Shown here piece after piece: positions 50,932-56,570 of a stretch of DNA of 64,000 nucleotides. The notes under the pieces were generated by a model, which had not been told where the DNA came from, searched no databases, and worked only from the letters and a program-made list of their open reading frames with translations. Every line of letters begins with the position of its first letter. The first letter of the stretch is position 1. The DNA lies in NCBI GenBank assembly GCA_902776945.1, contig CACYSH010000024.1:34223-98222 (forward strand), given 5' to 3'. A program made the position numbers and the translations under genes. Source of the stretch: an uncultured Ruminococcus sp. (lineage in GTDB: Bacteria; Bacillota; Clostridia; Oscillospirales; Ruminococcaceae).

Positions 50932-50974
50932 AAAAAGCGCTTTCCCTTTGTGCAGGGAGAGCGCTTTGTTTTTG
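50932..50974 (+). terminator. Terminator of dnaD/loader operon
   Basis: AAAGCGCTTTCCCT and AGGGAGAGCGCTTT pair around TTGTGC, followed by GTTTTTG. Confidence 0.82.
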
Positions 50975-50980
50975 TTATGG

Positions 50981-51160
50981 TATAGTAAACGACATAAATA
51001 ATTGTTCAATTGTTCGTTGATTGTGTAGGGCGGGGGCTTGCCCCCATTTGCATTAACCTAATTCAAAGTCATTGAAAATACGGAGATTTCGGGGTTGCAC
51101 GGGCGGGAGCAATCCCCGCCCTACACAATTAAATCACAAATTTTAATGTCGTTTACTATA
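50981..51160. mobile_element. MITE-like element, TATAGTAAACGACAT family
   Basis: The 180-bp element has perfect 15-bp inverted ends, TATAGTAAACGACAT and ATGTCGTTTACTATA. It carries GC-rich hairpins inside. The final 46 bp recur at 56465-56510 with one change. It ends four bases from the radical SAM stop. TA at both tips again suggests TA-targeting transposition. Confidence 0.75.
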
Positions 51161-51163
51161 ATA

Positions 51164-52237
51164 TCACCAAAGAATATCCTTAAAACACAGCCGCGGTTCG
51201 TTTTTCTCAAAATCCCAGCTATGGAACGAATCGCCGTGACAATGTGCGACCTCCGCACAGTTACGGCATTTTTCACAATCGTCCGAAAGATCGCGGCGGA
51301 ACGCCTTAAAACCGTTCTGCCATACCTCGCTGAAACGGTCGCGCAGAATATTCCCCTGCACCAGTTCGGGACGGCGCTCGATGTCAAGACACGCGATTAT
51401 ATCGCCGTTCGCCGTGATACTCGCCGTGTACAGCCCCGCCAAACAGAAATAATACCAGTCGCGCACCTCATGCTCATACTCCAGCCCCAAATAATGGCTG
51501 CAACCGTAGCAGACAGGCTCGCCCGCCATGCGCTTGTCGCGGATATAGTTTATCAGATGTCGGTGGTCGTCGGGGGTCAGCAGCAGTTCGGGATATTTCA
51601 GCGCCCTGCCCATAGGCTCGATGCCGAGTATTCGCCACGAATCTATGTCCATTTTGTCGAATATCGCAAACAGCTCGTCAAGCTCGCCGATGTTCTGATG
51701 CGTTACAACGGTCGTTACCTGCACGGTCTTGAAGCCGCCGACCGCCAGCAGATTTTCTATCCCCCGCATGGCGAGCTTATACCCGCCGGGCGTGCGGCGG
51801 AATGCGTCGTGGGTCGGTTCAAGCCCGTCTATGCTGACCGATACAGTCGCCATGCCCGCGTCGCGCAGCCGCTGTGCTGTCTCCCGCGTGATGAGCGTGG
51901 CGTTCGTGGTCATTCCCCATGCAAAGCCCAGTTTATGCGCATAGCCCATTATGTCGAAGAACTCGCGCCGCAGCAGCGGTTCGCCGCCCGTTATACAGAG
52001 CATTTTGTCGTCCGTGCCGAGATCGGCTTTTACCTCGTCCAGAAAGCGATAGTAGGTCTCGGCGGGCATTTCGTCGAGAACAATGTCCCCGCAGCTGCTA
52101 CCGCAGTGCAGACAGCGTTCGTTGCAGCGCGATGTAAGCTCTAAGAAAAGATAGCGCAGGCGCGGTTTTTCAAACAGACTGCGGCGGTAATCGGCGAGCG
52201 TATCCATACCCTCCAGCTTTAAATTAACGTCTATCAT
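51164..52237 (-). CDS. Radical SAM/SPASM enzyme of the rSAM/lipoprotein type
   Basis: The product has 357 residues. The radical SAM cluster motif is CNERCLHC (C38, C42, C45), followed by CITGGEPLLRREF and TVSVSIDGLEPTHDAFR. The C-terminal SPASM region has Cys-rich segments (CYGC, CEKCRNCAEVAHCHGDS, late CFKDILW) for extra iron-sulfur clusters. LELTSRCNERCLHCGSSCG and the RILGIEPMGRA segment resemble the family I recall as the enzyme of the rSAM/lipoprotein system (TIGR04133), known mainly in Bacteroidetes. The two genes before it encode lipoproteins, which fits. The chemistry is unknown; peptide modification is inferred. Confidence 0.85.
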   Translation of the reverse strand: MIDVNLKLEGMDTLADYRRSLFEKPRLRYLFLELTSRCNERCLHCGSSCGDIVLDEMPAETYYRFLDEVKADLGTDDKMLCITGGEPLLRREFFDIMGYAHKLGFAWGMTTNATLITRETAQRLRDAGMATVSVSIDGLEPTHDAFRRTPGGYKLAMRGIENLLAVGGFKTVQVTTVVTHQNIGELDELFAIFDKMDIDSWRILGIEPMGRALKYPELLLTPDDHRHLINYIRDKRMAGEPVCYGCSHYLGLEYEHEVRDWYYFCLAGLYTASITANGDIIACLDIERRPELVQGNILRDRFSEVWQNGFKAFRRDLSDDCEKCRNCAEVAHCHGDSFHSWDFEKNEPRLCFKDILW

Positions 52238-52251
52238 TGCGTAACTCCTTT

Positions 52252-52365
52252 AATGTAAACAGGCGTTTTCGTCAAAATGCAAAAAACCAAACTATCGCAA
52301 GGCTTGCCCCCGCCGTCTTCACGGACAGGTCTATTTATGCAGTTCGCCGAAGCCGCTCATTTATA
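52252..52365. repeat. Degenerate CTATAAATGAGC-family copy
   Basis: The right end GCTCATTTATA is at 52355-52365; the left end is decayed (ATGTAAACAGGCG). It separates the radical SAM gene from its lipoprotein genes by 133 bp. Confidence 0.55.
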
Positions 52366-52370
52366 CTCCT

Positions 52371-53015
52371 TTACTGAAATACATCGGGCGGTCCGTAAAC
52401 GGGCGCGGGCAGCGTTGAGGTCATATTTATATTCGAGCTGTCATCGTTCGGGAACGCCGCCGCCGAGCCGTAAGCGCCGACGGGAACATTTCCGTCAGGC
52501 GTGGAATATACGTTCGAGAAGGCGGTCTCGCTTGTGGTGACGATATTTCCGTATTCGTCGGTAACGGTCGTTTCGGCGGCGGAGCCGCTTGTTTCGGTGG
52601 GCGAGGTCTCCGATACGGCGGCGCTCGTTTCGGGAGCGGTCGTTTCAAGCACAGGCTCGGGAATGTTCGTGGTAATGGCGGTCGGCTGAGTGGTGATCGT
52701 CGGCTTGGTCTCCTTTGTCGTCGCCTGTTCGGTCGTTGTCGTTTCGGCGGTGGTCTCGGTCGGCTTTTCGGTGGTAGTCTTTTTCTTTTTCTTGGTGGTG
52801 GTCGTGGCTGATGTTTCAGCCGCGGCGGTAGTCTCGCTCGTTTCGGAAGACTCGGCGGCTGTCGTTTCGGCGGCTGTCTCCGAAGCCACTTTGGTAATGT
52901 CGGGCGGCGGGCCGTAAACGTTCTGTTCGTTGCTGCCGGGCAGATTGCAGGAGCTGAATCCTGCGGCGGCGGTAAGTATCGCCGCGATAAGCATGGTCTG
53001 TCTTGTTTTCTTCAT
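52371..53015 (-). CDS. Lipoprotein with Tyr-Gly-Pro-Pro motifs
   Basis: The product has 214 residues. Signal peptide and lipobox GFSSC (Cys23) are clear. NVYGPPPDI follows at 32-40, and a second copy VYGPPDVFQ forms the extreme C-terminus (206-214). Between them is a Thr/Glu/Ala-rich linker with a KKKKK block, and GAYGSAAAF near 190. Putative lipoproteins of the rSAM/lipoprotein system carry a related YGxP motif just after the lipid Cys (from memory, TIGR04134). ATG 53015 has GGAGG upstream. It lies 28 bp after the other lipoprotein gene and before the radical SAM gene. Confidence 0.8.
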   Translation of the reverse strand: MKKTRQTMLIAAILTAAAGFSSCNLPGSNEQNVYGPPPDITKVASETAAETTAAESSETSETTAAAETSATTTTKKKKKTTTEKPTETTAETTTTEQATTKETKPTITTQPTAITTNIPEPVLETTAPETSAAVSETSPTETSGSAAETTVTDEYGNIVTTSETAFSNVYSTPDGNVPVGAYGSAAAFPNDDSSNINMTSTLPAPVYGPPDVFQ

Positions 53016-53043
53016 GATAATATTTACCTCCGTGCGGGGTTGG

Positions 53044-53826
53044 TTATTCGGTGTCCTCAATGTCGGGTGCTATCTCTATTTCGTCGTATTCCTCTATGCC
53101 GTCCTCGTCGGCGAAAATGTCGGCATCGTCGTCCGCCGCTGTTTCGATTTCAAAACCCTCTGTCTGACCTTCGGCAGAACTGCCGACATCTGCGGGCTTG
53201 TCCTTTGCGGAGCCTGCCGCTTCGCCGCCCGACGAGCTTGTGTCGGCGGCTTTGCTCTCGGCAGACTTCGAACTGCCGTTATCGGTCGATTTTGATTTGT
53301 CGGCTTTGCTTTCGGCAGACTTCGAACTGTCTTTATCGGTCGATTTGGATTTATCGGCTTTGCTCTCGGCAGATTTTGAACTGCCGTTATCGGTCGATTT
53401 TGATTTGTCGGCTTTGCTCTCGGCAGACTTCGAACTGTCGTTATCGGTCGATTTTGATTTGTCGGCTTTGCTTTCGGCAGATTTTGAACTGTCTTTATCG
53501 GTAGATTTGGCTTTGTCGGCTTTGCTTTCGGCAGACTTCGAACTGTCGTTATCGGTCGATTTTGATTTGTCGGCTTTGCTCTCGGCAGATTCGGAGCTGT
53601 CTTTTTCGGAAGAGCCTGTGCTGTCCTGCGCGGATTTATCGGGAACGCTTTCCGCCTGTGGGGAAACTGCTTCGGGAGCGGATTCACTGACGGTCGTAAG
53701 CGTTGCATTGGGGTCGGGCCCGTAAGCGCCGTAAGCACCATACGACGGCGGCGAACATGATGCCAGCCCTGCGGCAGCAGCAGTCAGCGCCAGCGCGACG
53801 GCGGCGGTCTTTGCAGTCTTTTTCAT
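53044..53826 (-). CDS. Lipoprotein with YGAYGAYGPDP motif and 18-residue repeats
   Basis: The product has 260 residues. Lipobox GLASC (Cys24) is followed at once by SPPSYGAYGAYGPDPN (25-40). Six 18-residue units (SAESKADKSKSTDNDSSK type) fill residues 80-187, a hydrophilic spacer able to cross the cell wall. The tail is highly acidic (DDDADIFADEDGIEEYDEIE). AGAGG precedes ATG. It is the first gene of the apparent operon with the second lipoprotein and the radical SAM enzyme. Confidence 0.8.
   Translation of the reverse strand: MKKTAKTAAVALALTAAAAGLASCSPPSYGAYGAYGPDPNATLTTVSESAPEAVSPQAESVPDKSAQDSTGSSEKDSSESAESKADKSKSTDNDSSKSAESKADKAKSTDKDSSKSAESKADKSKSTDNDSSKSAESKADKSKSTDNGSSKSAESKADKSKSTDKDSSKSAESKADKSKSTDNGSSKSAESKAADTSSSGGEAAGSAKDKPADVGSSAEGQTEGFEIETAADDDADIFADEDGIEEYDEIEIAPDIEDTE
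53266..53589 (-). repeat. 54-bp tandem repeat inside lipoprotein gene
   Basis: Six in-frame 54-bp units encode the 18-residue spacer repeats. The units differ by only a few bases, so copy number is likely to vary between strains. Confidence 0.85.
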
Positions 53827-53842
53827 TTATTTTACCTCTTAT

Positions 53843-54034
53843 CTATAAATGAGCAGTGCCGTCAATTTGCACAAATCCAAACTATCACAAGGCTTGCAGG
53901 GCGGCTGCGGCATCAACTTGTTGATGCAAACTTGTTGGCATTAACTTTGTTAATGCAGCCATTGCCCCCGCCGTCCTCATGTAAAGACTTTATCTAATTA
54001 TTTATGCAATTTAACAAAAGGCGCTCATTTATAG
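53843..54034. mobile_element. MITE-like element, CTATAAATGAGC family
   Basis: The 192-bp element has the 12-bp ends CTATAAATGAGC and GCTCATTTATAG. TGCCGTCAATTTGCACAAAT is the inner left arm. Two palindromes sit inside in tandem: GCATCAACTTGTTGATGC (53910-53927) and GCATTAACTTTGTTAATGC (53938-53956). Confidence 0.72.
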
Positions 54035-54095
54035 CCCTTATTTTAAAGCCCGACCCCTTGCGGCGGTCGGGCTTGTTATGCTTATTCAGAAGCTG

Positions 54096-56179: not shown

Positions 56180-56570
56180 AAAAAGCACAACGGTCTGAAA
56201 ATCAAGGCGGTGGAGATTTATACACGAACACGCAAAACACGGACGCGCAATGCGCACCCCTACAATATTATATATTGCAGCAGACCTGTGTGGATTGTTC
56301 GACCCGTGTGTGACAGCTTGCCCGTGAACGCCCACAAAGCCGCGATTTTACAGTGATTTTGAATAGGCTATCGCGTATAGGGCAAGCCCCGCCCTGCAAT
56401 GTGTATGCGGGGCGGTCAAAAAAATCCGTGACGGCGGAGCAATTCACGAACACTGCAATAAACACCCGCCCTACACAATCAAATCACAAATTTTAATGTC
56501 GTTTACTATAAAATACGCGCCGAAGGCGCTCCTTAACTATTAACTATTAACTATTCACTATTCACTTTGT
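56180..56570. repeat. Repeat-rich spacer before SDR gene
   Basis: It holds GGACGCGCAATGCGCACCCC (56241), a lone TATAGTAAACGACAT-family end (56465-56510) and directly after it an inverted heptad array (GGCGCTCCTTAACTATTAAC, 56520-56566). The first 200 bp of the gap (55983-56180) are A/T-rich and show nothing recognisable. Confidence 0.65.

Follow-up and report, generated by a model that had tools for sequence, protein, structure and literature searches.

Does a radical S-adenosylmethionine (SAM) enzyme encoded beside two lipoproteins act on these two proteins alone, or on a short motif that they share with others? The question is raised by a locus on the minus strand of a 64,000-nucleotide stretch of DNA (hereafter the window) from an uncultured Ruminococcus sp. 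(GenBank assembly GCA_902776945.1, contig CACYSH010000024.1, positions 34,223 to 98,222), in which the gene order is lipoprotein A, lipoprotein B, enzyme. The original prediction, made from the letters of the window, described a SPASM radical SAM enzyme downstream of two Tyr-Gly-Pro lipoproteins, and this arrangement was borne out, with the enzyme above its Pfam cut-offs; the view of the locus as a two-substrate version of the rSAM/lipoprotein system (NCBIfam families TIGR04133 and TIGR04134) proved too narrow, as the motif is found on many unrelated proteins, including some that are not linked to the enzyme gene. We consider it likely that one enzyme serves a portable modification tag of the form Y-G-x-P, because DNA encoding VYGPP co-occurs with the enzyme and the proteins that bear the motif (hereafter carriers) are unrelated to each other.

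The Tag at the Enzyme Loci

A profile scan of genome contigs, with an alignment of six enzymes as the query, gave 150 confirmed relatives, of which the best 80 were kept; their loci are labeled mostly Ruminococcus, Lachnospiraceae, or Oscillospiraceae, and the relatives found include several strains of Ruminococcus flavefaciens. At all 80 loci a frame encoding YGPP lies upstream of the enzyme gene on the same strand, no more than 162 nt away at 79 of them and at a distance of 864 nt at the last (L031). With four same-genus loci included, 128 of the 129 YGPP frames at the 84 loci are on the enzyme strand. It should be noted that L005 and L010 denote one locus, and that L006 and L040 encode an identical enzyme protein. 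The original prediction had expected homologs of the enzyme to have YGP lipoproteins nearby; the motif is there throughout, but the carriers are not all lipoproteins.

Of the YGPP frames, 115 begin with a signal-like N-terminus and were kept as carriers (113 distinct sequences), and 14 were set aside; the 114-row carrier alignment adds the two window lipoproteins and omits the mis-started L068. Within the 113 carriers we counted 356 tag sites, Tyr-Gly being present in every site by definition of the count, and these divide into 300 YGPP, 38 YGPx, and 18 YGxP. Pro occupies position +2 in 95% and position +3 in 89% of the sites, neither being invariant, and the surroundings are also biased: Val at -1 (74%), Gln at -3 (40%), Phe at +6 (36%; Phe or Tyr, 49%), and frequently Y/F-D-P at -11 to -9. 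The number of sites per carrier ranges from one to eight, and the 71 carriers with a lipobox (by a pattern of our own) have one to six tags. An alignment of YGP motifs across homologs had been suggested as a check; YG(x)P is what the enzyme's partners have conserved.

Clustering of open reading frames (ORFs) of at least 70 residues over 83 loci gave an enzyme cluster present at 74 loci and a main YGPP-protein cluster at 53, and the next cluster reached 14. Among the conserved neighbors in this clustering there was no constant transporter, peptidase, or recognition element (RRE) of the kind associated with ribosomally synthesized and post-translationally modified peptides (RiPPs), nor was the classical RiPP layout found, in which a leader-core precursor is accompanied by a transporter or protease. 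Chance or base composition as the origin of YGPP was rejected, both on the upstream frames at 80 of 80 loci and on the motif count in the window genome (4.0 Mb, 280 contigs), where all frames together contain six YGPP, versus 22 instances of the backward control pattern. Three of the six are Walker-A motifs as judged by eye (RuvB, an AAA ATPase, and Lon), two belong to lipoprotein B, and one to a PrsW-family protein.

Unrelated Proteins Carry the Tag

Dockerin_1 was detected in 42 of the 114 aligned carriers (E <= 0.01; best 4.6e-14); these 42 are secreted dockerin proteins that often lack a lipobox (L023, L025, and L029 are dockerin loci). The window bacterium is itself probably a cellulosome-forming, Ruminococcus-like organism, because its genome gives 27 Dockerin_1 matches (E <= 0.001). 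Several of the 14 frames set aside encode small signal-less proteins with a single tag (L007, L008, L069, and L084). In genomes G233 and G159 of genus g3, the carrier that adjoins the enzyme is a DUF805 membrane protein whose tail is tagged. A five-member family (L185 2055-4500, L188) of 258-289 residues begins MKHS or MKQS and has one YGPP tag, with no Pfam match in the two members scanned.

VYGPP matches from nine genomes, seven of them enzyme-positive and two enzyme-negative, were viewed in 20 fetched stretches, 14 of which contain a carrier (one being the enzyme locus of genome G327). The unlinked carriers with Pfam matches above the cut-off are purine nucleoside phosphorylase (PNP), a GNAT acetyltransferase, and small zinc-ribbon proteins. 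On another contig of the window genome, a PrsW-family intramembrane protease (G000:C8:10660-11979, L090) has YGPP in its tail, NDEVQTVYGPPSALRG, and a C-terminal zinc-ribbon-like stretch scoring 24.9 bits against a Pfam cut-off of 25. The idea that carriers are lipoproteins only was rejected, given tagged proteins of the dockerin, DUF805, signal-less, PNP, GNAT, PrsW, and zinc-ribbon kinds; the long cell-wall spacers, which the original prediction made part of the two-substrate version, are one kind of architecture among the carriers.

Co-occurrence of the Tag with the Enzyme

Within the window's genus (13 genomes), DNA encoding VYGPP is found in five of the six enzyme-positive genomes, the sixth being 56% complete, and in none of the seven enzyme-negative ones. 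In a sample of the family comprising 396 genomes, the enzyme was found in 33, with up to five first-look candidates per genome scored at E <= 1e-60, so that a diverged enzyme could escape; counts were made by hand from tables. All 33 enzyme-positive genomes, which fall into 13 genera, have VYGPP DNA, and among the 49 enzyme-negative genomes of those genera it is present in four (Fisher 7e-19). Removal of genome G420 and its genus gives 32 of 32 versus 3 of 43; the enzyme contig of G420 (L225, G420:C2), which resembles Bacteroidales as judged by eye, sits in a genome bin of the window's family, and encodes a truncated true TIGR04133 enzyme (527.3 bits), is a probable contamination. In three enzyme-negative genomes outside the enzyme's genera, the VYGPP frames are short or spurious-looking.

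A PNP ortholog was found in 14 of the 16 genomes of genus g95; nine of these proteins have an N-terminal extension bearing one to three YGPP, and the other five have the usual start. Tagged PNP is present in all three g95 genomes with the enzyme and in one of the four that were searched and in which no enzyme was found, the other seven PNP (five tagged, two plain) coming from genomes outside the enzyme search.

Several observations weigh against a portable tag served by this enzyme. Across the whole sample, VYGPP DNA is also present in 113 of 363 enzyme-negative genomes (Fisher 4e-16 against 33 of 33), and the backward control is frequent in some genomes, with 48 matches versus 111 for VYGPP in the 33 enzyme-positive ones. 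Six of the 20 fetched stretches hold no carrier, and genome G392, which is 89% complete, has the tag on PNP as well as on a zinc-ribbon protein, without the enzyme being found. The PrsW tag occurs in just 2 of 11 orthologs, those of the closest pair (the window genome and G010), and is missing from the nine others. In the 113 carriers, moreover, 56 YG sites have Pro at neither +2 nor +3, and some of these resemble the tag; five tag-like copies lack the Gly (YEAP, YSAP). To these can be added that an RRE-like partner was not seen among the conserved neighbors at the 83 clustered loci.

The Enzyme Belongs to a Sister Clade of TIGR04133

The window enzyme matches Radical_SAM (PF04055; 83.1 bits, cut-off 29.5) and SPASM (PF13186; 38 bits, cut-off 21.5). 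Its top NCBIfam match is TIGR04133 (rSAM_w_lipo) with 262.9 bits over positions 7-339 of the 350 in the profile, which leads by 116 bits over the next match, the heme b synthase AhbD (146.6 bits), followed by mycofactocin MftC (137 bits); with TIGR04103, which we take to represent splicease, the enzyme scores 111.3 bits, the cut-off being 725. The enzyme family named in the original prediction is thus the best one and is matched over nearly its full length, but the score stays below the TIGR04133 cut-off of 425, as do those of all nine relatives scanned (253.9-291.5 bits). The lipoprotein family fared worse: TIGR04134 (lipo_with_rSAM, cut-off 39.8 bits) matches neither window lipoprotein (E <= 1), and gave no match in the window genome (E <= 10) or in the 114 carriers (E <= 0.003). 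Membership of TIGR04133 and TIGR04134 by cut-off was rejected on these profile scores.

Two enzyme trees of 22 and 21 sequences, the sampled enzymes having been chosen by similarity to a TIGR04133 query, group the window-type enzymes with three TIGR04133-type enzymes (support 99/99 and 99/97), and within this clade the window type forms a side of its own (94/91 and 95/99). On these trees the window enzyme belongs to a sister clade of TIGR04133, found in Ruminococcus and relatives. The nearest outside group consists of splicease and the GDL-type enzymes, with an unnamed Agathobacter enzyme, a result limited to the eight outside enzymes sampled, as the trees held no AhbD or NirJ and AhbD outscores TIGR04103 for the window enzyme. 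The GDL-type enzymes are the nearest relatives of splicease in the tree; the DUF1843 peptides beside them (L232, L236, L261) frequently show Y-G, Y-A, or Y-M close to their N-terminus, as in PYGAG, PYGPA, MYAAS, and MYMAT.

In a 71-row alignment, the CX3CX2C motif corresponds to C38/C42/C45, and C49 is invariant as well; the SPASM region has seven invariant Cys (C246, C265, C283, C324, C327, C333, and C351). Position 337 is not Cys, and, by spacing, a Nostoc splicease-family enzyme has a Cys there. This pattern would suit a single auxiliary cluster with an unusual set of ligands. An AlphaFold2 model from 71 sequences (pLDDT 92.1, pTM 0.90), which replaced an earlier one from six sequences (pLDDT 53.4), retrieved SkfB, SuiB, BlsE, a sactipeptide maturase, and the sulfatase maturase anSMEcpe as the top solved structures in Foldseek.

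A contig classed as viral in IMG/VR (L228 2000-4059; scan with query A3) encodes an enzyme at 54% identity, whose neighbor has two YGSP among zinc-ribbon-like CxxC pairs and a Pfam match under the cut-off. When a TIGR04133 fragment was the query, the viral sequences yielded no relative. A scan with the splicease enzyme gave 20 weak partial matches, which were not used.

Comparison with Known Systems

Loci of the TIGR04133/TIGR04134 type were fetched from three organisms. The annotated pair of Parabacteroides distasonis scores 607.9 bits (enzyme) and 207.1 bits (lipoprotein), that of Treponema saccharophilum 451.4 and 43.7 bits, and their lipoproteins read CEYGSP and SCYGMP; in Phocaeicola massiliensis, the frame beside an unannotated TIGR04133 relative reads CEYGTP. 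The original statement that partner lipoproteins of this family bear a YGxP motif is supported at all three, where YGSP, YGMP, and YGTP stand at or shortly past the Cys. In the window this applies to lipoprotein B, with YGPP soon past its lipid Cys, and to lipoprotein A only in the form of YGPDP. The pair (Bacteroidota, Treponema) and the window type are alike in a homologous full-length enzyme, in the order lipoprotein-enzyme (at the two annotated loci), and in Y-G-x-P near the Cys, and the shared core of their tags, as read from these sequences, is Y-G-x-P. The window clade differs in its enzyme scores (254-292 bits in the ten scanned), in the number of tag sites, which runs from one to eight in each carrier, and in carriers that are unrelated to each other, dockerin and cytosolic proteins included. 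The two known TIGR04134 lipoproteins match CarboxypepD_reg, one over and one under the Pfam cut-off.

PMC10533398 and PMC11002830 describe the splicease PlpX, which excises tyramine from X-Y-G and rejoins the chain; it is assigned to IPR026482 (PMC11002830) and goes with Nif11/NHLP precursors, and tested splice tags contain LYGLPI or GYGLPI (PMC10533398). Splicease resembles the window enzyme in being a SPASM radical SAM protein with an X-Y-G substrate motif, in being the nearest sampled group, and in one precursor with Y-G-x-P-P..F: a precursor that lies next to a splicease-family enzyme in Nostoc has LYGLPPELF as its end, near tags such as VYGPPEMF. Three points tell against this likeness. 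The motif is found in just one of the three precursors near the Nostoc enzyme, the other two having no Tyr-Gly in the core; one splice tag, which contains GYGVVFPG, has no Pro at +3 (PMC10533398); and the window enzyme falls far under the cut-off of the splicease-type profile. The window enzyme also differs in its invariant upstream C246 and in the absence of the fourth Cys of C-x2-C-x5-C-x3-C, and no Nif11 or NHLP leader is among the families listed for carriers.

Anaerobic sulfatase-maturating enzymes provide a precedent for one SPASM enzyme that reads a short motif on several proteins. Their substrates have one fold in common and are modified at a catalytic residue; the carriers, unlike these substrates, share the tag alone. 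MftC of mycofactocin is a related SPASM enzyme whose substrate ends in Val-Tyr, but its pathway, which has an MftB and an MftF, makes a small-molecule cofactor, and the window tag is internal.

Possible Chemistry and Role of the Tag

The enzyme probably brings about an unusual chemical change at the Tyr-Gly-Pro-Pro tag. As we picture it, the enzyme would be the maturase of a portable tag X-Y-G-P-P, with Y-G-x-P as its deeper core; it would recognize the tag in the cytoplasm on the proteins bearing it, unlinked carriers being substrates too, and would alter the tag Tyr by radical SAM chemistry. Secreted carriers, such as the lipoproteins and dockerin proteins, would be exported once modified, and the modified tag might act as a handle, reactive or rigid, by which carriers are attached or localized. 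A handle that binds or links carriers is plausible in that it would fit surface and cytosolic proteins alike.

As to the chemistry, our tentative first candidate, by analogy with PlpX, would be the excision of tyramine to leave an alpha-keto-beta-amino residue. Almost as likely, though still doubtful in itself, would be a cross-link centered on the Tyr, a cyclophane or ether that joins its ring to Pro +2 or +3, or to the acidic or aromatic residues at +4 to +6, in the manner of triceptides. The prevalence of Pro at +2 and +3 and of Phe or Tyr at +6 would suit such a link, and so would the fold, which is nearest to SkfB, SuiB, and other SPASM maturases; SPASM enzymes are moreover described in the consulted part of PMC11002830 as forming links from Tyr to a Cbeta between residues i and i+2. 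Against it, neither Pro is invariant, the three TIGR04133-type loci retain just Tyr, Gly, and the Pro at +3, and the triceptide partner residues named in that part of PMC11002830 do not include Pro. Other chemistries share the remaining probability. An unlikely, though more encompassing, version would have YGxP tags spliced or cross-linked proteome-wide, from dockerin proteins to PNP, to give a reactive handle (e.g., a ketoamide) by which these proteins are linked or localized, the tags being gained with the enzyme and lost without it.

The older picture, in which the rSAM/lipoprotein pair is a dedicated one whose substrates are the two lipoproteins and YGPP elsewhere is coincidence, appears improbable. 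It would account for the adjacency and common orientation of the enzyme and lipoprotein genes, and the two annotated TIGR04133 loci have a single adjoining lipoprotein, but several carrier folds occupy the same gene position, unlinked PNP, GNAT, PrsW, and zinc-ribbon proteins are tagged, and every YGPP of the window genome outside the Walker-A motifs lies in lipoprotein B or PrsW. About equally improbable is YGPP as no more than a polyproline-like docking or adaptor motif, in which case the enzyme would modify a different site or a different molecule. Partner domains are often bound by proline-rich motifs, and the tags occur several times per carrier within low-complexity linkers; set against this, the tag is the enzyme's constant partner at all 80 loci, and the ORF clustering over 83 loci shows no other widely conserved neighbor. 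Least probable of all is a mycofactocin-like linkage of the Tyr to the preceding residue, which the Val at -1 in 74% of sites, the rank of the mycofactocin maturase as third-best NCBIfam match (137 bits), and the terminal VY of Haloterrigena MftA might recommend, but the residue at -1 varies (L, A, E, D, T, K) and, the tags being internal, the decarboxylation step that is part of MftC chemistry could not occur.

A portable tag with one enzyme would have wider meaning. Peptide-modifying radical SAM enzymes are known mostly from dedicated natural-product precursors, and a single maturase for a short tag on many folds, such as PNP and dockerin proteins, would put this chemistry to a new use in everyday cell biology, perhaps with a bearing on fiber degradation in the rumen. 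The TIGR04133/TIGR04134 pair would gain a testable link to splicease substrates at the level of the motif, and a system of one tag and one enzyme could become a labeling tool. As far as we found, the pair is uncharacterized, its NCBIfam names being the only earlier description that came to light: full-text searches of the open-licence literature returned no paper for TIGR04133, TIGR04134, or "rSAM-associated lipoprotein," none for YGPP with radical SAM, and none for dockerin with radical SAM and Ruminococcus flavefaciens. In the same literature, the papers on dockerin and radical SAM do not suggest YGPP tagging in their titles and abstract openings, and those retrieved with YGxP include nothing relevant by title; the text of PMC10352776 contains neither "lipoprotein" nor "TIGR04".

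Features of the Window Locus

The features of the locus are collected in table 1. The motifs had been described as lying right after the lipid cysteine, which is loose, as the tyrosines start 5 (A) and 11 (B) residues past it. Lipoprotein A has YGPDP and no YGPP; its sequence past Cys24 is SPPSYGAYGAYGPDP, also given as SYGAYGAYGPDP. Lipoprotein B, for which a longer ORF version starts at TTG 53060 and the ATG start was used, does repeat its motif as the final nine residues, as had been noticed from the sequence, and a Thr/Glu/Ser/Ala-rich linker separates the two YGPP tags. This two-tag layout recurs in the relative at locus L005/L010. In the 95%-identical locus L005, an acidic tail similar to that of lipoprotein A precedes lipoprotein B, and the contig stops at that point; a locus with a 95%-identical enzyme is labeled Ruminococcus sp. 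(a metagenome-assembled genome).

Table 1. Coordinates of the enzyme, the lipoproteins, and their motifs in the window
Feature	Position	Strand	Basis or remark
Radical SAM/SPASM enzyme, 357 aa	51164-52237	-	ORF list and Pfam
Lipoprotein B (carrier), 214 aa from ATG	52371-53015	-	ORF list
Lipoprotein B tag 1, NVYGPPPDI (Tyr34)	52905-52916	-	11 residues past lipid Cys23
Lipoprotein B tag 2, PVYGPPDVFQ	52386-52397	-	C-terminus; last nine residues VYGPPDVFQ
Lipoprotein A (carrier), 260 aa	53044-53826	-	Ser/Lys/Asp repeat spacer and acidic tail
Lipoprotein A YGA-YGA-YGPDP motif	53710-53742	-	5 residues past lipid Cys24; YGPxP variant
54-bp tandem repeat, 6.7 copies (spacer of lipoprotein A)	53247-53609	-	

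Two kinds of repeat surround these genes. Directly 3' of the enzyme gene lies an element (50970-51171) resembling a miniature inverted-repeat transposable element, with 36-nt terminal inverted repeats (81% complementary) and 130 nt between the arms, a 15-base end piece of which is found again at 56496-56510. A dispersed repeat is present in two diverged copies, one between lipoprotein B and the enzyme (52270-52371) and one upstream of lipoprotein A (53860-54039), which are 87%, 84%, and 86% identical over three stretches.

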